DNA of 64,000 bases from Branchiostoma floridae (lineage: Eukaryota; Chordata; Leptocardii; Amphioxiformes; Branchiostomatidae), in NCBI RefSeq assembly GCF_000003815.2, contig NW_023365729.1, positions 418,015-482,014 on the forward strand, given 5' to 3'. The notes below the pieces were generated by a model. The model saw only the letters and a list, made by a program, of their open reading frames with translations. It was not told the DNA's origin and did no database searches. Below, in pieces: positions 4,956 to 45,317 of this stretch (the first letter of the stretch is position 1; the number at the start of each line of letters is the position of its first letter). Both the position numbers and the translations under genes were made by a program.

Positions 4956-5307
4956 CATTTATTAGTTTCCATCACATCACATGGGAAGATAGACATTTTT
5001 TAGTTAACTTACGTATGACTCAGTTTCAAAGAACATTACTTGAAGTCATCAGTTTACTTGGTTAAAGGGTGTTACTATTTATTGTCCTGTGACCATAAAA
5101 GCCCGGCTAGATTCTTTATGCACTTGTGTTTATGTTTTATCATAAAGTGGAGAGGTTCAGCAATGTTAATTTTACAGGACAATAGCTGCAATTCATAGAC
5201 AATTGGGACCTTCAATCAGACACATTTCATTTGTTTTTAAGAGCTGTTGAAAATATACCTAGCCATTATGCAACTTAAAATTAAACGAGAGCGTTTGTAT
5301 TTCACAG

Positions 5308-8286
5308 ATGCGTCGAGAAGGCCCAGCACAAAAGTCCACGACGACGACGGCATTTCTAAAGACCAAAACAAGACAACTGAAACCAGGGATGATGATGTTT
5401 CGCAAGACGCAACAGATAAAGACGACACTTACACCAGTGACCACGAGTATACTTACATCGACGACACGTCGGTAGAGGGTAGACGGGATGCAAAAGAAGG
5501 GCAACGTTCAGATATCGTAACATCACATGATCTCAATCCATCTCAAACAGACCCGCAGGACCAGACAGATCACGACTATACCTACACCGATGATCACGAC
5601 TATACCTACACCGATGATCACGACTATACCTACACCGATGATCACGACTATACCTACACCGATGATCACGACTATAACTACATCGACAACACATCAACAG
5701 TAGATACACAAGCTGCAAAAGGAAGCCCCGGTTCCGTCACATCACATGGCCACTGCCCACCCCAAGCAACCGAGCCTGTAAAAAACGCATCTCTACAACA
5801 AGGACAGAGAGGTGAACAATTCTTTACTAATACATGAATTTCATGCTACATTTCAAGCACATTTCACTCCATATCCCCTTTATTTTTCTGCTGTGCTCCT
5901 TCTTTAGGTGCAGTTTCATGCTATTCCACAGACTTTGTAGTTGTCATCGGAATGAAAGAGGATATGTGGTATTCTGTCAAATTTCCGTTTGATATCTAAA
6001 CATGGAAAGTCGATAGTGGTCGATTGTAATCAGATCGATGAAAACAAACGCTTTTCGAGTTTTGTTGTCTTTCTGCCATACCTGTGCGTTTAGCATGATA
6101 TCCCGATTGTAAAGACAAGAACAACGCAAATTCAATGTCAAGCGGAGCGACGCCGTACGTCAACGTACCGCATGTGCAGTCCAATGAGATACTCCATCTT
6201 TATAGACAAGTCCAGGACATGGACACTCTTTTTAAAATCAATCTTATGAGTGATTTTGTGGTGTTAATTTATCTAGCAGGCACCCTGGTCTGCCAGCTTC
6301 AACAATTCAAGGTTGGGGCAATCGTCATATTTGTTGCCGCCTTGATCGTCGTTGGGCTTCTCCTGTTGACGGGGGTACTGCCTCCTGACGAGCACAGCCA
6401 CACGGGAAGTTTGCCTTTTTGCTTTGATTTTGATTAACCACATGAGCTTACGCATGCAGAAGCACAGAAAATTGACTAATTTTGAAAGACAGATCCATTA
6501 GTACCAAATTAAGAATAGCTATTAACTTGATTAGTAACCAGATTGGTTAAAACGCTGCCGTTGCTATGCACTCTCGTATAACCAACTTATTTAGGGGGTA
6601 GAATGGCTAACGTATCTGTAGTTATAGCTACAAGGTATTTTATAGTTATAGTTCTGTCGTCAGAAAAGGTTGAGGCTCATTTGCCTTCTCAGTGTTTCAG
6701 TGTTTCACGGCTGAACATTCGCATTGTCTGTTCGTTTTGTCAGATAAAAACTATAAAAAACATTGTTTAACGTTCCACTAAACATACAAACATCTTTAGC
6801 CTACATAGACAGCATATTGTGACATGTACTTGAATAATGTAATGATATATACAATTTGGTACATCGTTTATTACAGCAATCTACATCTATGTGGCCTGGG
6901 CCCGATACAACTCAGTCACCTGCGATGTGGAGTTTGGGCTCTTCATCTGACGCTCCAAGGTCCAGGACAACAGTAGTTGTGGGCACAACTGACATCGACG
7001 TAAGTTAAACCTAATAGATTGGCTTATTCGACAGCATAGTCATTATAACAGTTATTGTGCCCGTACACAGAGGCCATTTTATGATGAGATGTCTTCCTTT
7101 TTTTCACCAAAGGTCCATTCAAACTCAAGCTCTGGAAATCGCATGTCAACAAGAATGGCAAATCCAGAAACGACTGCAAGTAAGAATATCATTTTGCCTA
7201 ATCAATATTACCAACAACTTCAAACTTTAAGATTATCATTTTTCCTATGTATTACCGACAACGTCCAACTTTGATTGGGTGTAACAGATACAGAGTGATA
7301 AGTCTAAATTGAAAAATAGTATAACTTTTTTAAAAGATAAAAAACCGCATCGATCACTCATTTTATTGTACAACGAGGCTAAAACAAGTAAGTCGTAGAA
7401 ACGTTGAGATATATGGAAATTGAAAATTGTATTCTCAATACCGACAACATTTTATCCCCCAGACATAAAGGTGACACCGATCATGACAAAAACCTTTGAT
7501 GTGGACGGCCGTCCCCACAGAGTCTCTGTGTCGACAAGTGGGAAAATAGCCGTGGCTTTAAAAGGGCGTCAAATCAACATCTATGACAGCCGTGGTGCCT
7601 ACCTCCTGCATTTCGCAACAGTTGTGGTGAAAGGATGGCCCCGGGAAAAGACCCAGATTTACCCTCACGATGTTGCTTTCGGTACCGTCAACAACGACGA
7701 CGTTTGGGTTGTAGGCGGGGACAACGTGTCCCATTACGTGGCGTTGTACGGTCATGCTGGGACTTTCTTAACCAGTTTTGCCATTCCTCGTGTCTCAACC
7801 CCTCGTAGACTTGCTCTGAACAGAGGATCAACTCTGACCATTCTGACAGAAACGGTCGTGCATCGTGGGGCGGTAAAGGTGTTCAGGATGAACGGGATGC
7901 TCGTTCGAAGTTTTGGCCGGCGGCAGGGCTTGATGTACCCAACAGGCATCACAGTGGACAACAAAGACTACATCCTAGTGGCAGACTCCCACACTGCCTA
8001 CATCTACATGTATCAGGAAAATGGGCGGTTCCTGCTCAAGTTTGGAGGGAAAGGGAGCAACAACGGCCAGCTGAGCCTCCCCATTGACATCTGTACGGAC
8101 AGTTCTCGTCACATCATCGTGGCTGACTCGGGAAACCAGCGGGTGGAGCTGTTCACAAGCCGCGGGAAACTCATCCGGCACATCGCTACTGATGTGGACC
8201 CGCTCAGCATTGCCATGGGTACAGAAGGACAGTTGGTCATGAGTGAATCGTCCAAGAACAAAGTGACTATTATGAAAATATATTGA
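5308..8286 (+). CDS. type II membrane protein with NHL beta-propeller, copy A
   Basis: Exons read as 5308-5811, 6277-6374, 6877-6999, 7113-7179 and 7463-8286 (stop TGA). Phases agree at every junction; the donor of exon 2 (GGG/gtactg) is the weakest site. The protein in order: an Asp/Tyr-rich cytoplasmic part with five copies of an 8-residue DHDYTYTD repeat; one hydrophobic helix (VGAIVIFVAALIVVGLLLL); a Ser/Thr-rich stalk (QSTSMWPGPDTTQSP); and about 270 residues with NHL repeats (VDNKDYILVADS, DSSRHIIVADSGNQRVELF). NHL propellers bind proteins or RNA; here the topology would put it outside the cell. No signal peptide, RING or B-box is seen. The first coding exon is not found upstream. An in-frame ATG at 5268 exists, but the site ttgtatttcacag/AT at 5308 and the match to copy B favour splicing. 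A receptor role is inference. Confidence 0.75.
5568..5687 (+). repeat. 24-bp coding tandem repeat (DHDYTYTD)n
   Basis: Four exact 24-bp units (5568-5663) and a fifth variant unit (DHDYNYID) inside exon 1 of copy A. The paralogous exon at 20796-20862 has three diverged units. Because 24 is a multiple of three, copy-number change keeps the frame and varies the number of cytoplasmic tyrosines. Confidence 0.9.
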
Positions 8287-9981: not shown

Positions 9982-12900
9982 ATGTCTAAAGCAGCAGGGC
10001 CGTCTAATGGCGAAAACGTGATTCACGCCCGAGACGATATCATGGAAGAAACGGAAAATACTCACTGCTCTGGTCAGGAGGACGAATTTGGTGACGACTA
10101 CATCGAGCCATATCTCACGACCTATCACTTTGGAACTTGTGATTTGGTAATTCCAGGAGAAACCCAATAGGGGCTGCACGAGCAACCTCCATGGAGGAGC
10201 TCCACAGAGCTGACCTCCATGGAGGTTGCTCGTACAGCCCTCCAGCTCCACCGAGCGAGCTCTATGCGCTATGAATACAAACACTTGGTTCTCGTCACCT
10301 TCATGGAATTTTTTTGTATTACATGGAGGAGCTTCTCTCGTAAAGGACAAACAACCGGACTGAACTAGCAGTTGTACGCAAAACATGGTACACGGGGTAT
10401 GAATGTAAACATTTGCCATGATTTGGTTCACGTCACCCAAAACAAATTGGTCTTAGCGCTCTATACGGTAACAGAGGGCTGTTTGAGCGGCGCTCTACGG
10501 GTTATGAATGTAAACACTTGGTTCACGTCACCATCAACAAATCGGTGTTTAGGGCTCCATACAGAGATACTGTAAACAACAAACACACGGAGCCGATAAC
10601 TGCTTGAGCAGCTCCACGGGCTATATGAATGTAAACACTTGGTTCACGTCACCATCAACAAGTCGGTGTTTAGGGCTCCATACAGAGATATTGTAAACAA
10701 CAATCACACAGAGCCGATAACTGTTTGAGCAGCTCCACGGGCTATATGAATGTAAACACTTGGTTCACGTCACCATCAACAAATAGGTGTTTAGGGCTCT
10801 ATACAGAGATATTGTAAACAACAAACACACAGAGCCGATAGCTGTTTGAGCAGCTCCACGGGCTATATGAATGTAAACACTTGGTTCACGTCACCATCAA
10901 CAAATCGGTGTTTAGGGCTCCATACAGAGATACTGTAAACAACAAACACACAGAGCCGATAGCTGTTTGAGCAGCTCCACGGGCTATATGAATGTAAACA
11001 CTTGGTTCACGTCACCATCAACAAGTCGGTGTTTAGGGCTCCATACAGAGATATTGTAAACAACAAACACACGGAGCCGATAGCTATTTGAGCAGCTCCA
11101 CGGGCTATATGAATGTAAACACTTGGTTCACGTCACCATCAACAAATCGGTGTTTAGGGCTCCATACAGAGATATTGTAAACAACAAACACACAGAGCCG
11201 ATAGCTGACCAAGCAGCCCCATGGGCTATGAATGTAAACATTTGGTTCACGTCACCCAAAACAAATCGGTCAGAGGTCTGTCCAAGCAGCGCTCTACTGG
11301 CTTTGATTGTAAACATTCGGTTCACGTCACTCAAAACAAATCGGTCAGAGGTCTGTCCAAGCAGCGCTGCACGGGCTTTGAATGTAAACATTCGTTTCAC
11401 GTCTGACCCAAAACAAATCGGTCAGAGGTCTGTCCAAGCAGCGCTGCACGGGATTATTTTTATTCTTCAAGTCGATGTTGGGTCGCGGAATTATTAGTGG
11501 GTTGGCAAAAGTAGTAGAATTTTACCGGCTCGCTCCCCCCCCCCATTTATGAATAGATACTTGTTTGTTTGCCATTGCCAAGAATGCGAAAACTTCGCAC
11601 CTTCATGCTAATCGTCCAGAATGGTTGATTTAGCCCTGTTTGGGAAAATCTGTTGGCCTACTAGAAAAAAAGGGTTTTATAAAACAAATATTTAGACCTA
11701 TTGCGGAGATCTGCAATACCAGGGGTGCCTGTTTTTAGAAGAATTTAACTGCCTGCCAAGAGAAAATAGTCTGTCCACCCATCCGTGCTGGATACGGGCA
11801 ATTAGGTAAAACTTCCTTGCTAAGAGGTTTGCAACAGGTCTAAATATTTGTTTTATGAAACCACATGTTGTTGTTTTGTCATAATGGGCAGCAGAGCGCA
11901 CGCATGGATGTTGGATACAAAAATTGAAAGAACAATCGTGATGGTGATAAATTTAGAAATCAAAACAACCCGTTTATTGAATGAAGCAAGCGGTGCATTG
12001 TTTATATGTCAGCTCTTGCAAAGAAAGCTGAAAGTTCGCACCTCCATGCTAATTCGAAATCGTCCCAAAGCGCGCTCTTTCCACGCCAGAACACTGACGC
12101 CAGCAGCTGGCTGACTGTCCTATGACGTACTCTTCAAGCAGAGGCTTGTGGGAAAAATCGTGACCATTTCCTTTCATATCAATTTGTTTTGAAGGCCGGT
12201 CGAAATAACATTATAAAAGGAAAAAGTCACGACCAACCTCTGTTTGGAGAGAAGGTCATATACATGTAGCCCGGTATAGTGATAAAGTCAAAGTACAATT
12301 TGCACAAACTATCTAATTTTAAAGGTTTTAATACTAGTATCCAACCATTGGTGTTTACGAGCAAGAAGGTGAGCAAACTTCCTTGGTACGAGGTTTGCAA
12401 CGACGGGCATTATGTTGGAGTTTACTTCTTGCATAGTGTTATATACCAGGGAGCTTTCAGATGAACACCCCATCCAAGCGTGTATTTGCCTGTTTCGGTC
12501 ATTCCACTTAGATGTATCTGCGGGGGTTTTATACAGATATCTTTACCTTGCAGATGTCCATGTTACGATAATATCTTTGCTTTATCTATTTTCCCAATCT
12601 ATTTCTCTCCGCAGTCTCTTCGTTTTCAGTGTACGTAGAAATAAAAGTGAAAAACAACAATTACGTGTTGTTTGTGCGTGTTCGTCACATTGGCTCCCCC
12701 CTTTGACAGAATGGAGTTATCCAGTAAAAGTTACTCGGGTGGTCTACACTTTGTTTGGCATACCGTCTGTGAGCGTTATCTCGTTTTCATTCATACACTG
12801 ATACAGTTGGAAATCGGTGCAAACCTAACTGGCTGATGAATTTAGACGATAAAATAGACGATAAAAACGACTAAAAAAACAGCCGGAGCCTAACCTCTGC

Positions 12901-15900
12901 TTGGAGAGAACCTCTTGCACTAGTACCTGAAAGTTAATGCTCTAACGTTAACATGCTTAAAATGAAACGTAGCTAAAATTATTGATAAAGAGAAAAGGTT
13001 ATTGTCAGATGACTTTGAAACCACTATATTCATATACTAGAAATTGAGCATGATAGCTTCGACTGAGACATCAGTAGGTATGTGATGTATTTTTGATCAG
13101 TTGTAATTTTATAATTTTCTGTGAAATATGATTTCTTGAAGGTGCGGCGTGCCATGTCTGTGGTTACAGGGGTGTATTCAGGAAATATTTGCGGAATTCA
13201 TACAAGCTCTAATGATCGTATGGATTCCGTAAAACTCATGACAGTCAGATTCGTGAGTTACTTTAATCTCCAAGCAAGGAAGTTGCTCCAAGCAGATCCT
13301 AAAATGGCATAAGATTATAAGTACGAAACTCAGGCCAAGAAGCACAAAAGGTGCCCTTTGCCTGAATTGCAAGGAGCTTACAAACTTCGATGTTAAAACC
13401 TTTGAGATCAATCTTGAATCAATACTAGTAGTCAAACTCAAAGATAGTTTATTGACAGTATTACTCTACCGGACTACAGGACCCACTCTCCAAGCAGGCA
13501 TGTACAGCTTGGTAGAGTCTTCGATATTGTAACCTTCTTATATGCCGGTAAGACCAGCGGGGAAAAGTCAGACCTTCAAGAAAAAAGTCACACTTTACTC
13601 TACCAACGTCTGCTTGAAAAGTTACTGGCCAGTCAGCCAGCTGCTTCCGGCGAGTGTTCTGGCGTGGTAAGGGCACGCTTTGGGGCGATGTCGGATTAGC
13701 AAGGAGGTGCGAACTTTCAGCTTTCCTTGGGAGAGGGACAAACATTTCACCGCTCGCTTCATTCAATGAATGGGTTGTTTTGAGTTCTTCTTGGACAACA
13801 AGAACTTTCTTTGAAATTAAGATCACGGAATTCATACGATCTCTAATAATAGTAAATATATCTTGTGCATTTCGCAACTCATTTGAGTTCAAATCCGCGT
13901 CTTTTTTATAATGAATCGTATGAAAAACATATATATAAATTCATACATATTCCATAAAACTCTTATGAAAGCCGTTATATTCTTATAATAACAGGCACCC
14001 TGGTTTGGAAATCCCCTCATAACAGGTCGCAATATCGTTTATGAAACCAAATGTTTCTTTTGTTTTGGTAGTGGACCAACAGATTTCCACAAACTTGTTA
14101 CAAGGCTGAAGTAAACCAATAACAGCTATTAGCACGAAGGTGCGAAGCTTCCGCATTCTTTACAATGGCAAACAAACAAGTCACATCTATTTTCAAAGAA
14201 GAGGTTGGGTCCCCATGTGAAGGGAGCGAGCCGGTAAATTCCGACTACTTTTCCCAACTCACTATTCTGTAACCCAAAATCCGCATGAAGAAAAAAATAT
14301 TCAGTTTCTTGGGTCATTTAAAGGTACATGAGATAAGGAGTTTTGTTTTGTCCGCATGGTTTATATTCATAGTGCGTAGAGGTGCTGGCTCAGATCTCCG
14401 CTCTGCTAAATGATTTTGTACAGACCGGTTTGTTTTGGGTGACGTGAACCAAATGTTTACATTCATAGCCCGTGGAGTGCTGCTTGGACAGACCTCTGAC
14501 CGATTTGTTTTGGGTGACGTGAACCAAATGTTTTAATACATTCATAGCCCGTAGAGCGCTGCTTGGACAGACCTCTAACCGATTTGTTTGGTTACGTGAA
14601 CAAATGTTACATTCAAAGCCCGTAGAGCGCAGCTTGGACAGACCTCTGACCGATTTGTTTTGGGTGACGTGAACCGAAAGTTTACAATCAAAGCCCGTAG
14701 AGCGCTGCTTGGACAGACCTCTGACCGATTTGTTTTGGGTGACGTGAACCAAATGTTTACATTCATAGCCCATGGAGCTGCTTGGTCAGCTGTGTGTTTG
14801 TTGTTTACAATATCTCTGTATGGAGCCCTAAACACCGACTTGTTGATTGTGACGTGAACCAAGTGTTTACAATCATATAGCCCATGGAGCTGCTCAAACA
14901 GCTATCGGCTCCGTGTGTTTGTTGTTTACAGTATCTCTGTATGGAGCCCTAAACACCGATTTGTTGATGGTGACGTGAACCAAGTGTTTACATTCATATA
15001 GCCCTCGGAGCTGCTCAAACAGCTATCGGCTCTGTGTGTTTGTTGTTTACAGTATCTCTGTATGGAGCCCTAAACACCGATTTGTTGATGGTGACGTGAA
15101 CCAAGTGTTTACATTCATATAGCCCGTGGAGCTGCTCAAACAGCTATCGGCTCTGTGTGTTTGTTGTTTACAATATCTCTGTATAGAGCCCTAAACACCT
15201 ATTTGTTGATGGTGACGTGAACCAAGTGTTTACATTCATATAGCCCGTGGAGCTGCTCAAACAGTTATCGGCTCTGTGTGATTGTTGTTTACAATATCTC
15301 TGTATGGAGCCCTAAACACCGACTTGTTGATGGTGACGTGAACCAAGTGTTTACATTCATATTGCCCATGGAGCTGCTCAAACAGCTATCGGCTCCGTGT
15401 GTTTGTTGTTTACAGTATCTCTGTATGGAGCCCTAAACACCGATTTGTTGATGGTGACGTGAACCAAGTGTTTACATTCATAACCCGTAGAGCGCCGCTC
15501 AAACAGCCCTCTGTTACCGTATAGAGCGCTAAGACCAATTTGTTTTGGGTGACGTGAACCAAATCATGGCAAATGTTTACATTCATACCCCGTGTACCAT
15601 GTTTTGCGTACAACTGCTAGTTCAGTCCGGTTGTTTGTCCTCTACGAGATAAGCTCCTCCATGTAATACTAAAAATTCCATGAAGGTGACGAGAACCAAG
15701 TGTTTGTATTCATAGCGCATAGAGCTCGCTCGGTGGAGCTGGAGGGCTGTACGAGCAACCTCCATGGAGGTCAGCTCTGTGGAGCTCCTCCATGGAGGTT
15801 GCTCGTGCAGCCCCTTCTCGAGAAACCACGTCGGCGTCGCCCCAACCCGATCCAACGTGTCATGATGTTTCATTCTCGAAAGGTGATACTTACAAATTGT

Positions 15901-18900
15901 ACATTCATTTTGAAAGGTTAACATTGACATGTGGTGTTTTTTGTTAAAAGACGTGCTAGAACGTATAAGCTACTTGTTGTTTCATGTTTATATTTACCAT
16001 GATATACATACAGTACATACAGTCTATAAAACAGATGTAAGGATCTAGTTCAATCTCAGTGTTAAGCGCGTGTTTGTAACATTTAGTACGCATTTTTCTG
16101 AAACTTTTCATTCTCGTAAGTAAAAAGGATAACTACATCACGGCATGATAAATCTTACTAATATAGGTGTTAACATCGCAGACTGAATCACAACCGAGCA
16201 CCTGCTTGGATAAACGGTCTACAAATAGTCTCAAGAAAAAAGGAAAATTAGCTTCATCCTTTTCCACTAGACGGCGATCGCGCTGCGCTCTCACTGCGAC
16301 CTAAATGGGATATGTGTAACCTTCGCTTTCACACAAGTTATATCCTACAAAACGTAAAAGTATGACTGAGAAGACAAGAAAACACACAAAGTGTAAAAAG
16401 ATACGTCTCTTTTATATACAATTCGTTGAGGGATACGTCAAATTTTAGGTCGCACAGAGAGCACGGCGAGAGCGCCGTCCTAGTGGAAAGGGGGTATTAG
16501 GCCCCCTTTCCACTTGACGGCGCTCTCACGGCGCTCTCGCTGCGATGGAAAATTGGCCAGAGCGCCGTGAGAGCGCCGCGACGCCAGAAAAACTGCTCAA
16601 GTGGAATCTCTCCGGCGACCCCAGCGCGCTCTCACCGCGACGAAAAACTCAAATGTCAGCATCTTTTTATGAGCTAGCAAAGATTCGAAAGATTACTCAA
16701 CGAATTTCAGAGATAAAGAACGAATCTTTTGACGTATAGTGTATTTTGGTATCTTTAAAGTCATCCTTTTACGTCTTACATAACATTCAAAGTATAAAAT
16801 CAAGGCTGTAATCAAATCCAATTTAGGTCACTGTGTACAGTCACTCAGACTGAAATATACACGTTTGTCTTGATGTTTTTCCTTAAATCTGTCATGTAGC
16901 TTGTTCACCATAAATTTCTTTATAATGCCACGTTATTAGTGTAAATCATACACCACTGAAACACTTCGATTTATTGAAAATGGGACTTCAATCATCTAAA
17001 TATACAGATGGAGAACAAGAAAACCTAATGTCATCATGTTGAAATTCAAAAATAAGTTGAGAAATGATAAACGTTTGTTTTTTAAACCTTGCTTATTCCA
17101 TCTCAGTTTGTTGAATTGTTCATCACCGGTACATTTTGGACATTTCTCCGCTTTCTGTCTATGTCAAATATACTTCTTCACAATCTGCAGTTGAGAGCGC
17201 AGAGAGAGCGCGGTGAGAGCGCCGTCCTGGCTAAATTGGTATCATAAACCACTGTTGAGAACTATTGCGCTCACCGCGCTCGCTGTGCGCTCTCTTGGCG
17301 CTCACGGCGCTCTCTGCGCGCTCTCTCTGCGCTCATCGGTGGATCGCCGTCCACGGCGCTCTCACGGCGACTGTTTTGAGCAGGTTCAAAACAGTCGCGG
17401 AGGTGATGGCGACCATGGCGACCATGGCGCTCCCACCGCGCTCTCTTCGCGCTCCCATGGCGACCTTGGCGATCCCACCGCGCTCTCACCGCGCTCTTCC
17501 CAATTTAAGGTCGCAGAGAGAGCGCCGCGAGAGCGCCGTCCTAGTGGAAAGGGGGTATTACAAAGCATTTAACATCTAAACTCGGCACAAAATATTTGGA
17601 ATATTAACTTCAGTTGATAATATTTTTGTTGTTTCTGCGTCAGTTTCAATGTGTTATATATATTTATAGAAATCTTATGTGATTGTCTTTCCAATGGTAT
17701 TAAACTCATTACCATTGCTAACTCATGGAACACGCACTAGCTATAGGCCTGCTTAAGGTGGGTTTACACCTGCGTATATTTTCATGCCGCATGAGTTCCG
17801 TTTTGACATTTTTCGACATTTTGACTAATTTCTTCAATACGCGGCCGCACGCACAAGTCGCACCTCTATCGCATCTGAATCGTCTTTAGAAAGTTTCACG
17901 TACGCAGGCAAACGAAAATATACGCCCAGTTCGCCTGATAGTTTTGGACATGCACAAAACTATCATTCGTACGCAGTTTGGTGCCCAAAACGTTATGGAT
18001 GCGCAATACAGTGGTCCCACGTCGGTCGATTGCGCTATGAAGACGCTACATGTTTGCTCTTTACACGCAGTAATACGCGGAAATCGCGGTAATGCGAGTA
18101 CATAGCGTTCTTACAGCGCAGACACAACGCACCATGAGCGACCGTATAACGAATGCACACATAGATCACGATTTAGTACCGTGCGTTCTGCGATCGCTTT
18201 GCGCATACTACGCGTACTGATAGCGTGATCGACGCACACTCCAGATTTGGAATAAATACGAAGGTGCATCTGACTCCAGACAAAAAAAAATCATCTCAAG
18301 ATGTATATAACTTTATTGCACAACAATTGTACGAGGTACAAAGTATGGCATCTACATAACTACAGTGCTTATAGCACTGTAGTTATGTAGATGCCATACT
18401 TTGTACCTCTTAACTTTAGTTAAGGCTTATCTAACTAATACAGGAGTTGTATTATGGGACAAGTTTCTTACAATCATTGGAGGCTTTTACAATCATTTGG
18501 GGAATTTCTAATGTCTAAACCTTCTTTGATATATTTTCCTATATCTGCCATGCAGGGATTGTCACATGTCATTATGTATTTGAATTTGCACTTCAGGTCC
18601 ATTTGGATAAATCCTTGTGTACAAAATGACAGCCTTCTGTATAGAGAATTGCGTATATCGAAATATTTGGGACATACAACCATAAAGTGATATTCGTCTT
18701 CTATTAGCTCTGGACAGAATGGACAAATCCTCTGGTCGATAGGGATTTTTTGGAATCTTCCGGTTTATGATGTCAGATCCAGGACAGGACTGAAGAATTT
18801 GTACCGGGGGCATGGAGAGATGGTCACAACTTGCAGGACACCATGAATGCAGGACACTGGTCCCAACAGAGCCTCCAGGGACGGGAAGATGGAGAGGAAC

Positions 18901-21900
18901 CTGCTCAAGCACTGGGTCAATTTGTGTGACACACGTGCCATTTTGTGTAACAGATATTTGACTTAATTTGCTGATAATGGCACTTTTTTGTGTGTGTAGA
19001 ACCACATGATATAAAGGTGCAATATAGAGCCATATTACAACTTTGAAAGAGGGCGTAAGGTTTCATAATTGTTTAATCTACGTGTTTGATAAAGATCTTG
19101 AATACGTTTTGTGGTGTGTATGAGTGTGATTTTTATAGTAGTTGAAATACTAAGATGCAGGGGAAATCATTAAGGACAAAGTGAAAACAAACACAATCTT
19201 AACAGTGCACATAATTTCTTAAGGTAAATGATGGCCCACATTTCTGTAAAAGCACAGTGTCACTGGTTTACTGCTTCGCAAATGAATAAAAAAACCTCTT
19301 CACTGTTTACTTGTCAATGTTCTACTTGCACTGCCTGTAAACAAAGGCATACGTAGTACAAAGGGTTCCTCTAACAAAAATACTCTATTGGCAATGCTCG
19401 CAAACAAAAGTATATGTAACAGAAACTGTTCCTCTGACACACCTGAAATGCGTTTGGAATGCAGTTAGCACCAGGTGCGTCAGGCATGCGGTCGGTAGAC
19501 GTTGTGTGCGCCCGGAAAACGCCCAACATACGTACCCCATACGAATCTATTCGCAGTACGGAAAATTTTGTTGCGCATTTCAGTTGCAATCATACGCATC
19601 TCATGCGAAATGAAAACGCTGAAGTCGTAATTCAAACGCCAGATGGGCTCGACGTACAATTTAATTTATTCCAAAAAAAATCCAAATGTTGGGCGTTCTG
19701 CCGCGTATTGACAAAATTTCATGCGGAAATCATGCGCACTTGAAAATATACGCAGGTGTAAACCCACCTTTACGTGAGTGGGTCTCCAAAAAAATGCCCA
19801 AATTTCCCTGCTTCTCTTTAACACTGTTTTGTCCGGTTGTTAAAGCTGCGGGTGTTAATGATTCAATCCATGCCTTTTTCACGTAACGTTTGGTATACAT
19901 AACATCCAAGTTTATTCTTAGCATATCTGAGTAGTGAATTTTATGATTTTAAATTTATGGAACGAGCACCAGGCCTGCTTACGTACAGGGTAGAGTCTCT
20001 GCGTACAGGGGGTCACTTTGTTGATATTCCAAACTTTTTGTTTCGAGTTTAGTTTGGATGCACATTGCACACCGGTCAAGACTGAGTGGGAAAACGATAT
20101 TCTGTCATGTCATATGATGCTATGTCGTGTCACGTATGACTTAGTATGTAAAAATTAATTGAAGAGAAAAAATATCATAAATTACGAGGCCAGTGATTTC
20201 TTGTTACAGTCTTTTAAGTTAACATCGAAAGGTTTAGAGATCGATATGACTGACAAATCAACATGTAATAGCTGTGGAGAAGACTTTGAATGTTGTAGTG
20301 TATTCAAAAGGCCACACCAACGGAGGTCTCCGTTCAGCATAACCACTCAGAACCGTGTCAGTATTTTACAGGATGGAATTTTTTAAAAAGTTCTGTTTGT
20401 TTCAGCACATGCATGTTGAAGAATCCTTAAATTTGATGTGAGCTACTGGCCTAGACACTTAAGCAGTCAGGACGCTTTTTTTCACTTTTATAACCCGGTA
20501 TTTCCCGTTCTTTTTCCAAAGATACGTCTAGAATCCTCAGCCACATCTCACAAGACAAACATTCCGTAGATTCGAGAAGGCCCAGTACCACAGTCCACAA
20601 CGACAACAAAAATAAGACAACTGAAACCACACAGGATGTTTCGCAAGACGCAACAGACAAAGACGACATCAGTGATCACGAGTATACTTACATCGACGAC
20701 ACGTCGGTAGAGGGTAGACAAGATGCAAAAGAAGAGCAACGTTCAGGAATCGTAACATCACATGATTTCCATCCATCTCAAACAGACCCGACAGACCACG
20801 ACTATACCTATACCGGTGACCACGACTATACCTACATCGATGACCACGACTATACCTACATCGACAACACATCAACAGTAGATGCAAAAGCTACAAGAGG
20901 GACAGGATCCGGAGGCTCCGGTTCCGTCACATCACATGGTCGCTGTCCATCCCGAGCAACTGAGCCTGTAAAAGACGCATCGCAACAAAAAGGACAGAGA
21001 GGTAAATAATTTTTTTACTAATACATGACTTTTTATGCTTGATTTCAAATACACATTCCATACACCTTTTTGCCGTGACGCTACGTTTACGAACAGCCTC
21101 ACCGTAGTCATCAGACTTAGTAGTAGCCAACGGAATGAAAGAAGATATTATGTCACCTTTCTGTTTGATATCTAAACAGTTTGAAGTCGATAGTGGTAAA
21201 TTGTAACGGGGGATATCTCGCAGAATGTGCGATACGCGTGGATTGACATCGCTGAAGTAATTTTATCGATAAAAACAAATCTCTTTGGATGTAATTATGA
21301 ATACTTGTGTGTTTAGCGTCATATTCCGATTATAAAGACGAGGGCAACACAAATTCAACGTAGAACGCAGTGACGACGTCAACGTATCGCAGTCTCATGA
21401 AATACCCCTTTTTTCAAACACATGATCTCTGTTTGGACACGTTATAAGCTTTTTTTGATAAATTCATTTAGCAAGCACCCTGGTCTGCCTGCTTCAACAA
21501 CTGAAGGTTGCTGCAATGGCCATATTTGTTACCGCCTTGATCGTCGTTGGGCTTCTACTGTTGACTCGGGTACTGCCTCCTGACGAGCACAGCCACACGG
21601 GAAGTTTGCTTTTTTATTTTGTTTGGACACAGGTTCCACGTATGAAGAAGCATATACATACCAAGTAGTTGACTGACAATCAGATCACTTTGTTTCAAGA
21701 ATAGTTATAACGTATTCAGATTGGTTGGAATGCTGTCATTGATATGTTTGCGAGTTGTTCTCGAGGTAAACTGGTTGAATTCTTTAGTCAATTAGAAGTT
21801 GTGTTTTCATCATCAGATGATATGAATCAAAGAAGCAGTCTCAAGGCTGCTGTGTTTTACATCTTGTGACTAGAAATATTTGCCTCTGTTTCATCTTATT

Positions 21901-24863
21901 GGTGGAAAGCATTGTTAAACGTCGATCTTGCATGTATGCAAGCATGTCCATACCGTATATAGGTAGCAATAGTATCAATATAACTGTACTATAATATGTC
22001 CTGATGATATTAGGAATTAGTCCTCTATTAGGTATCCCTCTCCCTTATAGAGATTATTTTTACTTTTATTTGTACTTAATGTGATAGTTACCTCTATGAA
22101 ATGTCATGGAATGGAGGTTATATTTTCTGTTATGTGTCTCTGTCTGTGTAGATGATTACTCAAGAACGGCTGGATGGATTGATTTCATACTTGTTGTGTT
22201 GGTTGGGTGTGATAAAAGCTCGAATCGATGAGATTTTGGGAGCCGTATCTGTCGTTATAATCGATGTAATAATATCAGAAATCACCCCTATATTTGAGAT
22301 ATATTGGTACAGGCATCGTGCTTTATGTGTTTGTTAATGGGCTTAGCTCCAAGCAGATGGTGAGGTGACAGCTGTTTGGGGAACCCCGAGTTTTTTTAAT
22401 ATGATAATTAGTTTTATTTATGTCTGCTTAGGATATCATGGAGATGTGAAGTGTAAGTATAATTGTAAGAAGTTGAGGTACATTTAACGATAATGCTTAA
22501 CAGGTATGGATGTCTCACATACTGTACTGCTGATTTGAGTGACATGGTGTTTAAAATGCCATTAGGTCCTCTCATCTGGGTTGGGTGTCAGAAGTTTTAT
22601 GGGCGACACAGATGGTCTGATTTTGTTACGATAAGGGACAGTTGTTAGTTGTCTCTTTCGTAGCCAATGGTACTTGTTTTTTTAGCAGACCGGGTTGGCG
22701 CCAAGTATTCATCTTACAGTTGGTGTAGGGCTGTCAGAGGAAAGTGTGCATCTCGTTTTTGTACCGTGTGAACAGCTGATGTTATGACATATTGGTGGAA
22801 AATCAAATCACCATCTGACTAAAATTGGCCACATCCCTTCTTCTTTCTGAGTTTCCCAACTTCCTCCCACCACACAGCTCTGAGGCACATAGTCGAACCT
22901 CAATAATGCTGACAACCTTAGACATTTTAAATGCCAAACATCAAGCTTAAGGAACACCACGCTACCATATGCCGTCGACCTCTTAAACGCACATTACACA
23001 ATTAAGTGTCACATTTTGATAATTACTAATCAGATGGACATCCTCTGTGTCATTAAATAAATACACCACTACTTTCCCATAACATTTATATTATATAACC
23101 ATTACTCTCAAATACAACCGACTATAAACATACATACCATCCACAAAAAAGCAATAAATATTTCATGGAGATATGAGGTCCCCGAACTCTAGTTCATTTT
23201 ATTTTTTTATATGTCAATCTTTTAACCTAAAATTAAGCACTGCCATGTACTTGAAGATTGTACCATGAATCAGTAAACACATGCTATATTTGTATCATGT
23301 AGTGACATTTGCAATTTTGAATATCATTTGTTACAGCTATCTACATCTGTCTGGCCTTATACAACTCAGTCACCAGCAATGTGGATTTTGGGCTCTTCGT
23401 CTGATGCTCCAAGGTCGAGGACAACGGTAGTTGAAGTCACAACTGACATCGACGTAAGTTATACCTGAATATGCTGCACTGTCTTATTCAACATAATATA
23501 TCTATTACAACTGTGCCTGCACAATGAGTCAATTTTAGTGACAACGTGCACGTGTTTGCTATTTTTCACCAAAGGAGATGTCAAACTCAAGCCTTGGGAG
23601 TCGCATGTCAACAAGTGTGACACACGCAGAAACGACTGCAGGTAAGACCATCATATTAGACTGCAGGTAAGTCTATATATTACTAAAATTTTGTAATTTG
23701 GAATCCCCCTCCCCCCAACAAAGCTCCTGTGACTAAAACAAGACTCCTTTGCAATAACTGTGTCTTAGCTTTGTTTTCTATTAAAATCCAAATTGTCTTC
23801 AGCTTGACTCTGTCTTACTCTATGTTTCCTATTGGACATCTAAAATCGTCTTCATTCATAATTAGGGTATAAAAGACCAGTTTCTTCAGTAATACTTCAG
23901 TGTTACTGACAAAAACTGAAATGTCTGGCCGTTTCCAAAATTATATCCAGTTGCTTAAGTCACTGCTTTTTTGGCATATCTTACTACCTGGATGTCTAAT
24001 CTTCAAGCTTCATCGACGTAACACGGTTATACCCCCCCCCCCTAGGCATGAAGGTCACACCAATCATGACAAAAACCTTTGATGTGGACGGCCGTCCCCA
24101 CAGAGTCTCTGTGTCCACAAGTGGGAAAATAGCCGTGGCTTTAAAAGGGCGTCAAATCAACATCTATGACAGTCGTGGTGCCTACCTCCTGCACTTCGTA
24201 ACAGTTGTGAAGGAGAAGGGACGGGAAAAGACTCAGATTTACCCCCACGATGCTGCTTTCGGTGTCTACAACGACGACGTTTGGGTTGTGGGCGGGAATA
24301 ACGTGTCCCATTACGTGGCGTTGTACGGTCATGCCGGGACTTCCTTAACCAGTTTTGCCATTCCTCGTGTCTCAACTCCTCGTAGACTTGCTAAGAATAG
24401 GCTGTCCAATCGCCTCATTGTGACAGAAACGGTCGGCCATCGTGGGGCGGTGAAGGTGTTCGGGATGAACGGGATGCTCGTTCGAAGTTTTGGCCGGCGG
24501 CAAGGCTTGATGTACCCAACAGGCATCACAGTGGACAATAAAGACTACATCCTAGTGGCAGACTCCCGCACTGCCTACATCTACATGTATCAGGAAAATG
24601 GGCGGTTCCTGCTCAAGTTTGCAGGGAAAGGGAGCAACAACGGCCAGCTGAACCTCCCCATTGACGTCTGTACGGACAGTTCTCGTCACATCATCGTGGC
24701 TGACTCGGGAAACCAGCGGGTGGAACTGTTCACAAGCCGCGGGAAACTCATCCGGCACATCGCTACTGATGTGGACCCGCTCAGCATTGCTACGAGTACA
24801 GACGGACAGCTGGTCATGAGTGAATCGTCCAAAAACAAAGTGACCATTATGGACATATATTGA
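9982..24863 (+). CDS. type II membrane protein with NHL beta-propeller, copy B (exon 1 split by a transposon)
   Basis: Exon 1 (9982-10164 plus 15828-15882) is interrupted by the fold-back element and one copy of its 8-bp target duplication. Further exons: 20570-21001, 21472-21569, 23337-23453, 23575-23641 and 24046-24863. Without the insertion these total 1770 nt, 590 codons with stop, and all phases match. The N-terminus is acidic with a Tyr motif (DDYIEPYLTTYHF). It is followed by the TYID/DHDYTYI region, a TM helix (VAAMAIFVTALIVVGLLLL), a Ser/Thr stalk and the NHL propeller, close to copy A. As assembled, translation from 9982 ends at TAG 10168-10170, just inside the element, so this allele should not make the full protein from that start. 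Assigning exon 1 to this gene rests on position, phase (G/AT gives Asp) and the donor AAAG/gtgata; no transcript supports it. Exon 20570 has no in-frame ATG of its own, which supports an upstream first exon. Confidence 0.65.
10157..10164 (+). other. target-site duplication of FB1, left copy
   Basis: GAGAAACC, identical to 15820-15827. It lies in frame within the coding sequence for Gly-Glu-Thr. Confidence 0.8.
10170..10241. repeat. subterminal hairpin of FB1, left end
   Basis: gggctgcacgagcaacctcc reverse-complements ggaggttgctcgtacagccc about 30 bp further in, so each end of the element folds on itself. The same hairpin is at the right end (15743-15814). Confidence 0.85.
10497..11460 (+). 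repeat. tandem repeats of the FB1 left arm
   Basis: About six units of 121 bp (each with atgaatgtaaacacttggtt, cacgtcaccatcaac, tgtttagggctc, acagagccgata), followed by three or four shorter units of about 65 bp (aatgtaaacattyggttcac, aaaacaaatcggtcagaggtc). Each unit carries a 'cacgtcac' stretch. No protein function is implied by the ORFs crossing them. Confidence 0.85.
12285..13495. other. FB1 central loop
   Basis: The non-palindromic centre of FB1. It has short ORFs without recognisable domains and several CTCCAAGCAG / CTGCTTGGAG motifs (12890, 13267, 13489) shared with MITE ends elsewhere in the window. I see no transposase, RNA gene or host gene in it. Confidence 0.5.
14390..15490 (-). 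repeat. tandem repeats of the FB1 right arm
   Basis: Reverse-complement counterpart of 10497-11460: short units first (14400-14775), then about six 120-bp units up to 15490. Small differences from the left arm (for example a lost segment near 14790) show that the arms have diverged slightly. Confidence 0.85.
16254..16497. mobile_element. short TIR element (MITE), GAGAGCGC family
   Basis: The left end tccttttccactagacggcg and the right end cgtcctagtggaaaggggg are inverted copies. Length about 245 bp, noncoding. It abuts the next element of the same family at gtatta. Confidence 0.65.
16498..17562. mobile_element. longer TIR element of the same family
   Basis: The left end ccccctttccacttgacggc is the inverse of the right end gtcctagtggaaagggggta. 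Both termini are packed with GAGAGCGC/GCGCTCTC motifs, CpG-rich against an AT-rich middle. Arg/Ser/Pro-rich ORFs at 17213-17579 are translations of the motif and not genes. Confidence 0.7.
18280..18810 (-). mobile_element. 3' fragment of a non-LTR retrotransposon
   Basis: On the minus strand a frame reads IDQRICPFCPELIEDEYHF followed by MVVCPKYFDIR (about 18655-18735). This is the Cys/His knuckle found after the reverse transcriptase in many invertebrate LINEs. A hairpin and CAATAAAG follow near the 3' end (about 18315). The reverse-transcriptase core is absent, so it is a dead 5'-truncated copy nested in the Harbinger-like element. Confidence 0.65.
18333..18409. repeat. near-perfect 37-bp inverted repeat
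   Basis: Arms gaggtacaaagtatggcatc... and ...gatgccatactttgtacctc around a loop of only a few bases. On the LINE strand it falls in the 3' UTR. Confidence 0.9.
20796..20870 (+). repeat. coding tandem repeat of copy B
   Basis: Three diverged 24-bp units coding for DHDYTYTG, DHDYTYID and DHDYTYID, paralogous to the five units of copy A. Confidence 0.85.
22085..23205. repeat. interspersed repeat in intron of copy B
   Basis: Bounded by cctctatgaaatgtcatgg (22092) and tttcatggagatatgaggtc with gaactctagttc (23162-23196). The same end motif occurs at both ends of the element at 34432-35949. It contains the 'gattactcaagaacggctgg' block also seen at 34228. No coding content. Confidence 0.55.
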
Positions 24864-40130: not shown

Positions 40131-41664
40131 TCTTGTGTTTCGTTGACCTTTATTTGTTTTGTTTTGATGTTGTGTTGTATACTATTTTCAATATTGCTGC
40201 ATGGCACGATATGCGGTATGTTTTCATATGTTTTATACCTTATTTTGAAGTGTTACCTATGTCCCTATGTAGTTTAAGTGACCCCAATTACCTGCAACAA
40301 AATTATGTTATTTTATGTACATTAGCTTTGCCCAACTTATGTTTTGCATCCAGTGGACGCCCCTTTTTATCAACCTATTTGACAACTTGTATTATTTTTC
40401 AAAGGTCTCATGGTATTGCCAAAACTTAAGATATGCAGTTATAACTGTAACGGTCTGGGCGACCACAGGAAACGCAACCAAACCTTTACATGGCTAAAGG
40501 ATAAATCTTACGATGTATATTGCCTGCAAGAAACCCACTCTACACCTTTGAATGTGGAGAGATGGAAATCAGATTGGGGGGGGGGGGGGGCGTCCGATTC
40601 TATTTAACCATGGTTTAAGTAATAGCAGGGGTGTTATAATTTTATTTAAGGAAAATTTAATCTTTACTGTCCATCAAACTCTGAGCGATAATGCAGGACG
40701 ATGGATGTCCTATCGACCTCTTCCGTTTTTCATTAGCAAACATTCATGCCCCAAATACTGATAATCCATCTTTCTTTGCCGATCTTGAAAATAATGTACA
40801 GTCGCTTCAATATCCAAATATCAATAAATACTTGTATTCATTTTTCATGTCTGAGGCCAGGCTATGGGATACTTCTGACCGGATTCAATACTCGTGGGGG
40901 GAATACTTGAACACACCCATACCATGGAAAATAGTGTACAGTCTACCTTATAAAGTTACTATTGACTCCCAACTGCGCATGTTCCAATATAAATTACTAT
41001 TTAAATTTTTAACTACCAATAAGATATTACACAGGTGGGGGTTAATAGACACATCGCTTTGCAGTTATTGTAGAGAAGAAGACGAAACAGACATTCATTT
41101 ATTTTGGCACTGTAGGGTAGTAACACAATTTTGGGTACAGGTGGAAGATTGGTATTTTAAACACACTGGGAACCATTTACATCTTAAGAGCGAATGTCTG
41201 TAAGGGTCAAACAATGGTGGCACCGGTCAAAAAATAGATTTGGCTCATTTTTTGCACAGTGATAGTACTTGGTACACAACCCCTCAAAATAGCTTTCTTT
41301 CTTCTCAGAACCCCTCGTTGCCATGGCAACAGGCCAAAGAAGTTTGGGGGCCATTTTGCCGGATTTGGGCATGTCAAAAACATGAAAATTGGCCAACTTA
41401 AGGGCACTATCACTGAACAATGCTTTAACTAAACAACAAAGGCAGAATATGCTGATCAGAGCAATGCCTAAACTTGTATGAAATAGCAGTAAAATTAATC
41501 TCCTGTAAATTCTAAGGCCCTGGGCAGCCTGAATACAATACACTGTTTTCAGGTTGTGAAGAATCTGAAATTTTGCCCAACTTCAAAGCACTGAAAGTTT
41601 ATAAGTATGAAATAGTTTCGCTTGCAATTTACTACAAATAATAACCTACTATAGGGCTATTAGA

Positions 41665-43931: not shown

Positions 43932-45317
43932 TATGGGACTTATGATTGTTTCAAGAGAGCATAAAATGACATATTATCAAAATCATGAAATTTGACCCAC
44001 TTCGACGGACGATTGCATAGCAACAAAACAAGAACCCAAACTTTGCTAGCATTCATCTAATAGCCCTATAGTAGGTTATTATTTGTAGTAAATTGCAAGC
44101 GAAAATATTTTATACTTATGGACTTTCAGTGCTTTGAAGTTGGGCAAAATTTCAGATTCTTTACAACCTGAAAACAGTGTATTGTATTCAGGCTGCCCAG
44201 GGCCTTAGAATTTACAGGAGATTAACTTTACTGCTATTTCATACAAGTTTAGGCATTGCTCTGATCAGCATATTCTGCCTTTGTTGTTTAGTTAAAGCAT
44301 TGTTCAGTGATAGTGCCCTTAAGTTGGCCAATTTTCATGTTTTTGAAATGCTCAAATCCGGCAAAATGGCCCCCAAACTTCTTTGGCCTGTTGCCATGGC
44401 AACGAGGGGTTCTGAGAAGAAAGAAAGCTATTTTGAGGGGTTGTGTACCAAGTACTATCACTGTGCCAAAAATGAGCCAAATCTATTTTTTGACCGGTGC
44501 CACCATTGTTTGACCCTTACAGACATTCGCTCTTAATCTGTTTAATGTATTATTTGGCGATATCAGTGTTCGATGTCCAGCTTTGTCTAATTTGATTATT
44601 TTGCTAGGTAAATATTTTATTTTCAAACATTGCTACAGACGTATTAATTTGAATTCATTTATATCGTATATTTCATTTTATTTTAAATTAGAAAGTATTA
44701 TAGCGAAGACTTGACAAAAGTAAAAAACATATCGGTAAATGGGGAAAATTAATTGGTTATATTTAATTTGATATGTCTTATACATTATGTATTGCTGCAA
44801 TGGTAATTTGGGTACAACTTCTAGAACTTTATTTGTCACCACCTTCATTTTATTTCAATCATCAGTTCTAGTTTTTCACGTGTCATTCTGTTTATGATTT
44901 ACATGCCATACATGTGTTTGAATGTGTTTTATGTTCTTTGAAAATCAATAAAAATTATCTTGAAAAAAAAAAGAAAGAATTTTCAATAAACTTTTTTTTA
45001 ATGTTTACGTACATTTTATGAGAAAAATGAAAAAATCAATGTCTAAACTCTGGGCATAATTGATCATAGCATTAAACCTAAGCAAAGTTGATACATGTAG
45101 TACAGTATTTTGTTGTAAAGTTGTTGACATTAGGAGACGCCGAACTAATGAACATCAGTCTTGAATACCGATTGAGTGATCATGCTATTCGAGCTCCGGT
45201 TCGCTCCTGCGATATCTTCCTTTTTACTTGTTATAGAATACTGTATTGTGCGTGGAAGCAACCATACTGTAGCAAATGGGAGTTAGAATGGATACCAGGC
45301 TAGGTGACCAATCCTGC

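Follow-up and report, generated by a model that had tools for sequence, protein, structure and literature searches.

A fold-back transposon interrupts a coding exon in a 64,000-nucleotide stretch of the Branchiostoma floridae genome (contig NW_023365729.1, positions 418,015 to 482,014; hereafter the window, with positions counted from its first base). The gene concerned, which encodes an NHL-repeat protein, is duplicated; the 5,655-bp element lies in the first coding exon of one of its copies, bordered on both sides by an 8-bp target-site duplication. The insertion is real and of an already known kind. To account for it, we favor a non-autonomous cut-and-paste transposon with terminal inverted repeats, of the fold-back type, and assign this explanation a probability of roughly 93%. 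Under this explanation, a transposase supplied from elsewhere would have recognised the tips of the element and pasted it through an 8-bp staggered cut into its landing site in the NHL gene, and recombination from arm to arm would invert the core. We observed the structure of the element, its duplication, a family of elements with common tips, related gene copies whose exon is empty, and the core in both orientations. The assembly that we searched comprised 513 Mb in 431 contigs, within which the window corresponds to C171:418015-482014. The interrupted gene is made up of the following features:

9982..10164, plus strand: 5' part of the interrupted first coding exon, from its ATG to the end of the left duplication, 183 nucleotides, open frame
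15828..15882, plus strand: 3' part of the interrupted exon, 55 nucleotides, open frame up to the donor AAAG/gtgata
20522..21006, plus strand: exon 2, starting AT|ACG, open, with Asp/Tyr-rich repeats; its end is the last codon before a stop rather than a mapped donor
21462..21602, plus strand: open stretch with a hydrophobic, transmembrane-like segment, recognised by eye; limits approximate and counted by hand
24051..24860, plus strand: NHL-repeat exon (Pfam NHL), open to its stop

The left frame opens at the ATG at 9982 and runs through ...LVIPGET, followed by Q and then a stop. Beyond the element, the frame resumes at 15828 as TSASPQPDPTCHDVSFSK, followed by G/gtgata. Removing the element and one 8-mer joins 183 and 55 nucleotides into an open exon of 238 nucleotides that ends in phase 1, and because exon 2 starts AT|ACG at 20522, a GAT codon spans the junction between the two exons. 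The NHL exon of the interrupted copy matched Pfam NHL with an E value of 2.3e-14. A preliminary description of this locus had proposed a left frame ending Gly-Glu-Thr, a right frame open to AAAG/gtgata, and a 238-nucleotide exon whose end phase fits the next exon. These proposals were confirmed by the reading ...IPGET ahead of Q and the stop, by translation from 15828, and by the GAT codon that exon 2 completes, respectively. Its view that the insertion lies within one exon whose former state can still be read also held, as a related gene copy on contig C17 shows the exon uninterrupted. That copy holds both parts as one 238-nucleotide exon, which contradicts the competing possibility that the two halves belong to different exons.

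The element itself and its duplications are organised as follows:

10165..15819, plus strand: fold-back element, 5,655 bp, with tips CAATAGGGGC...GCCCCTTCTC, delimited by arm alignment, tip searches, and junction reading
10157..10164, no strand: left target-site duplication GAGAAACC, from sequence match and comparison with sister copies
15820..15827, no strand: right target-site duplication GAGAAACC, from the same evidence
10169..10313, no strand: outermost left arm, 145 bp, 100% complementary to 15671-15815
15671..15815, no strand: outermost right arm, 145 bp, from inverted-repeat alignment
10165..10250, plus strand: left tip, itself a hairpin (DNA fold of -37.9 kcal/mol, z -11.0)
10478..11270, no strand: 121-bp tandem repeats of the left arm, 6.6 copies
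11205..11452, no strand: 75-bp tandem repeats of the left arm, 3.3 copies
11455..14420, no strand: middle, made up of the core and the weak inner arms, in which no transposase was recognised by eye
14423..14789, no strand: 75-bp tandem repeats of the right arm, 4.9 copies
14790..15507, no strand: 121-bp tandem repeats of the right arm, 5.9 copies

Beyond the outermost 145 bp, at which complementarity is 100%, the arms continue for a further 886 bp at 98%. Arm identity was 95-100% per 100 columns across ~1.2 kb from each end, with a weak inner part. The middle of the element forms no hairpin, and its longest stop-to-stop frame (within 11450-14330) is 159 amino acids. The outermost four bases are not complementary, being CAAT at the left and TCTC at the right. 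The left-tip hairpin, formed by the first 86 bases, is far more stable than 200 shuffles and was also seen as opposite-strand matches of the tip (query positions 7-76) in the genome search. Long inverted arms with internal tandem repeats, as found here, characterise fold-back elements. The preliminary description had given the extent as 10157..15882; the element is present there, but the element proper covers 10165-15819, and the wider range adds the duplications and the remainder of the exon.

Sister elements are dispersed across the assembly. Of 220 candidates found with the left arm end as the query, 40 were scored; every one of these matched at 90% or more, and two were the element's own arms. 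A search for tip patterns returned 74 left tips (51 exact) and 87 right tips (56 exact), while the reversed patterns returned no left and no right tips. When tips were paired within 13.5 kb, 53 of the 74 left tips had a partner on the correct side, none had one on the wrong side, and 21 were unpaired. Of the resulting 53 two-ended copies, 45 span 1,708-10,508 bp and the remaining 8, two of which share one right tip, do not exceed 155 bp. Because copies were located via their tips, part of the agreement at the left tip is built in. The right-end TCTC lies outside the arm-end matches, and its agreement in copies chosen from those matches is independent.

We read both junctions in 21 of the 45 long pairs, the window's own copy included, and found an exact 8-bp duplication in 19 (18 of the first 19, then the 10.5-kb copy on C18 and not that on C231). 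No target consensus was evident among 18 tabulated duplications. A constant duplication length across copies and a dispersed multicopy family with common tips are again features of fold-back transposons, and together with the inverted arms the 19 exact junctions bear out the earlier identification of a fold-back transposon with an 8-bp target duplication. It was an overstatement to call so clean a site rare, in that duplications just as exact flank 18 of the 20 other long insertions read, none of which was shown to lie in an exon. Nine short, tip-only places were also read. Four had exact 8-bp duplications (at lengths of 80, 82, 82, and 119 bp), and the others agreed at 7 of 8 positions (54 bp), 6 of 8, 5 of 8, and, in two cases, had no duplication; here the inner C15 copy and the partial duplications were counted by eye, and the C16 and C19 places are not proper tip pairs. 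Given the four exact duplications, tip sequence alone appears to be enough for mobility.

Some family members have been modified by later events. An inverted-repeat element with ends GCCTCTRCCAGGCTTCG and a 10-bp duplication GAGTTTCGTA is nested at the same place in two sister copies (C15:14331581-14340580 and C10:3239441-3240841). In the C15 copy, this nested element carries an exon with AG/GT borders, as if host sequence had been captured; we take the exon to be MAM-like. We considered the extra segment of sister copy E3 as the transposon's own coding region and rejected it, as E2 and E3 share the nested element with its 10-bp duplication and that of E3 carries the MAM-like exon. Separately, two left tips lie 73 bp apart at C15:17070531-17070765, apparently through partial tandem duplication of a miniature copy plus its flank.

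Both orientations of the core occur in the family. From the best core matches, orientation relative to the CAAT tip could be judged in 15 copies. It was plus in 4 of them (the window's own element, E6, E7, and E14) and minus in the other 11 (E2, E3, E8, E9, E10, E11, E12, E13, E15, E16, and the C18 copy). This count leaves out E1, E4, E5, E17, and E18, which were not judgeable, and the C231 copy, which was not scored; its basis is thin for E8 (a single 99-bp match) and E16 (right inner part only). Most copies also have shorter core matches on the opposite strand, as expected given the weak inner arms. At least two inversions in the family are likely, because the window's core is 95-96% identical to those of E2 and E3 yet inverted relative to both, while the plus-oriented E6, E7, and E14 are less similar, at 77-86% in the best core match. 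This pattern suggests recombination between the arms as the simplest cause of inversion.

The source of the transposase was sought inside the copies and near the tips. None was recognised by eye in the frames of the window's own element or of the C15, C12, C234, C18, and C231 copies, on which no family scan was run; the C234 and C18 copies carry nested reverse-transcriptase pieces, also identified by eye. The 8-bp duplication agrees with the hAT superfamily. Tips of the hAT type read YARNG, however, and those found here read CAATAGG and, from the other end, GAGAAGG. Alternative hAT-like tips starting TAGGGG (window 10168) were rejected by eye, as the flanks would no longer match. A search of the assembly for PF05699 (hAT) gave 33 matches, and none of the 30 positions compared lay within 20 kb of a tip; the other three were within 400 bp of compared ones. 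For the P type, PF21787 gave three matches (10 candidates), all more than 200 kb from the tips found when coordinates were compared by eye. We claim no superfamily membership for the element, which behaves like a fold-back transposon and is one in structure.

Several observations weigh against the explanation that we favor. The 8-bp duplication is missing from copy E12 and from the 1.7-kb copy on C231, and among the 9 short places it is poor or absent at 4. Coding sequence might go unnoticed in the long N runs of several copies, C15, C12, and C18 among them, and the interior was read in only a minority of the 45 long copies. A relative carrying a transposase was looked for and not found, which leaves the superfamily and the supply of transposase in trans unproven. 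Lastly, splicing might skip the interrupted exon or remove the element from the transcript.

Related copies of the gene provide the view of the site before insertion. A search of the assembly with the exon returned four places: the window, C17 (95%), and two places upstream on C171 (82% and 80%). The C17 copy has an uninterrupted exon with a single GAGAAACC, the 82% copy has a whole exon with TAGAAACC at the site, and the 80% match stops short of the insertion site. The left part of the exon aligned to C17 within 455 columns that are 95% identical, and with the flanks joined, one alignment of 1,471 columns (89.4%) spans the site. A second copy of the gene lies in tandem directly upstream (C171:414855-415617 and window 5241-8286) and comprises two exon-1-like pieces, a repeat exon, and an NHL exon. 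Outside the gene-to-gene block, C17 and C171 had 12 matches of at least 150 bp, of which 7 pair the tandem copy with the same C17 gene. Two of the remaining five are a 474-bp block, 92% identical and on the same strand, situated on each contig ~26 kb upstream of the gene (C171:402287-402760 and 402798-403267, a tandem pair; C17:6377047-6377540).

We weighed several alternatives against these results. That the two flanking 8-mers are identical by chance, with the insertion having come about by another route such as repair with filler DNA, has almost nothing to recommend it. GAGAAACC in itself is not rare, occurring 3 times in the window against 1.47 expected, with at least 3 occurrences in 13 of 100 shuffles. 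The duplication counts as evidence because the 8-mers at 10157-10164 and 15820-15827, placed on either side of the hairpin as the preliminary description had it, are flush with the element tips and because sister copies behave alike: the flush duplication in 19 of the 21 long copies already contradicts coincidence, and the empty C17 exon has GAGAAACC only once. Another question is whether the C17 gene is an allele, or part of a divergent and rearranged haplotype, in which case the assembly would already display presence and absence of the element at one locus. The two genes are colinear from exon 1 through the NHL exon, and the 474-bp block, present twice on C171, is the sole sign of shared order beyond them and would favor allelism or the duplication of a larger segment. 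According to part of a published account (PMC12500494), haplotypes in amphioxus differ greatly in sequence and arrangement, with heterozygosity of 3.2-4.2%. We nonetheless regard allelism as unlikely. Over ~52 kb on the upstream side and 72 kb on the downstream side, C17 shares nothing else of 150 bp or more with C171, except for a few short matches and those of the tandem copy to the same gene. Synonymous divergence (dS) between the interrupted and C17 copies is 0.07-0.12 across four exon pieces, which exceeds the quoted heterozygosity, though that figure covers more than silent sites. A different gene, close to the window's end, supplied two probes, and both matched only C171 in the assembly. 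Because the flanks share little and the probes match C171 alone, the empty copies are most likely paralogues, with some doubt for C17 on account of the one colinear block, and the assembly appears to hold no evident allele of the interrupted locus. The preliminary description had suggested a possibly polymorphic insertion, of which the assembly thus gives no direct sign.

Another alternative concerns the consequence of the insertion rather than its origin. The earlier claim that the element disables this copy agrees with a frame that stops after Gly-Glu-Thr-Gln, although this is a predicted effect only. Normal protein is probably lost from the interrupted copy, because the stop falls two codons past the duplication, ahead of the transmembrane-like and NHL parts. 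Were the element instead spliced out as a new intron, the copy could still work. The right tip and duplication form a pyrimidine-rich AG, cagccccttctcgag/AAACCA at 15823, in a stretch that is 75% pyrimidine, the highest among 14 candidates listed. Three substitutions within five bases (10144, 10146, and 10148) set the interrupted copy apart from the two related copies that reach this position, with GATTTGGTAATT in the window versus GATGTAGAAATT and GATGTAGAAATA in those two. They alter two amino acids and create a donor-like GT at 10147, giving a possible donor TTG/GTAATT close to the insertion. The NHL exon, moreover, is stop-free. We consider such splicing improbable, however, as the donor at 10147 and the acceptor at 15823 are mutually out of frame. 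Acceptors in frame with 10147 (15723, 15756, and 15798) are only 31-63% pyrimidine, the acceptor at 15823 requires a phase-1 donor (10073, 10091, or 10139), and every such combination drops or adds residues. A last alternative keeps the fold-back family, with its 8-bp duplications, asymmetric non-complementary 4-bp tips (CAAT/TCTC), and hairpin tip, moving as hairpins of 54-119 bp and at up to ~10 kb, and would have it driven by a transposase from a superfamily that is undescribed or not known for fold-backs; we give this an outside chance.

The exact duplication, the absence of stops in the later exons read in the interrupted copy, and the high arm identity fit a fairly recent insertion, as the preliminary description had suggested, but do not prove one. 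Arm identity was not used for dating because gene conversion can keep arms alike. In the NHL exon, the interrupted copy has 7 silent and 9 replacement codon changes of its own and the C17 copy 3 silent and 12 replacement ones, counts that are too few by branch to separate constraint from decay.

The first intron of the interrupted copy contains ~3.8 kb (16260-20058) where the C17 copy has ~35 bp, and this segment begins with an apparent short inverted-repeat element, CCACTAGACGGCG ... CGCCGTCCTAGTGG. Near-identical open frames lie in opposite orientation around an N run at 41184-41582 (minus strand) and 44138-44536 (plus strand); the window probably has another large inverted repeat here.

While the phenomenon itself is already familiar, the locus offers a clean before-and-after view of a fold-back insertion into a coding exon. 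The family supplies dozens of tip pairs with which to define the sequence needed by the transposase, and its copies of 54-119 bp suggest that little beyond one hairpin tip suffices. The two core orientations make arm-to-arm inversion countable. Presence or absence of genes between amphioxus individuals is common, according to part of one report (PMC12373286), and the interrupted copy is a concrete candidate for how one gene copy of a tandem family gets lost.

We recognised no published account of this family by title or beginning of abstract; Repbase was not compared, so this is no proof that the family is undescribed. Among deuterostomes, sea urchins have the TU elements, fold-back elements whose arms are long and rich in repeats and whose duplications measure 8 bp; by description, the element reported here is similar to them. 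Galileo of Drosophila likewise has unusually long arms that resemble those of fold-back elements, but it is a member of the P superfamily in the parts of its literature consulted (PMC3688188, PMC4168063), whereas the three P-type matches here are more than 200 kb from the tips found. Tm1 of root-knot nematodes is similar in fold-back architecture, to judge by the title of its report, which assigns the family to Mutator (Mutator/Foldback) (PMC3169594). The nearest described parallel among those compared is Tetris, a fold-back element of Drosophila virilis, for which its authors suggested Mutator from the duplication length and earlier suggestions, according to the portion of their account consulted (PMC4079207). 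Compared by description, Tetris differs in having duplications of 8-10 bp and a repeat unit of ~220 bp, where the clear duplications here are 8 bp and the units 121 and 75 bp (PMC4079207). In the same portion, its long inverted arms are divided into flanking, tandem-repeat, and inner domains around a non-coding middle, complete copies are without transposase, duplications are ~8 bp, and a shorter element, DAIBAM, has arm ends in common with it (PMC4079207). The family described here resembles Tetris in these points, for the lack of transposase as far as its copies were read.

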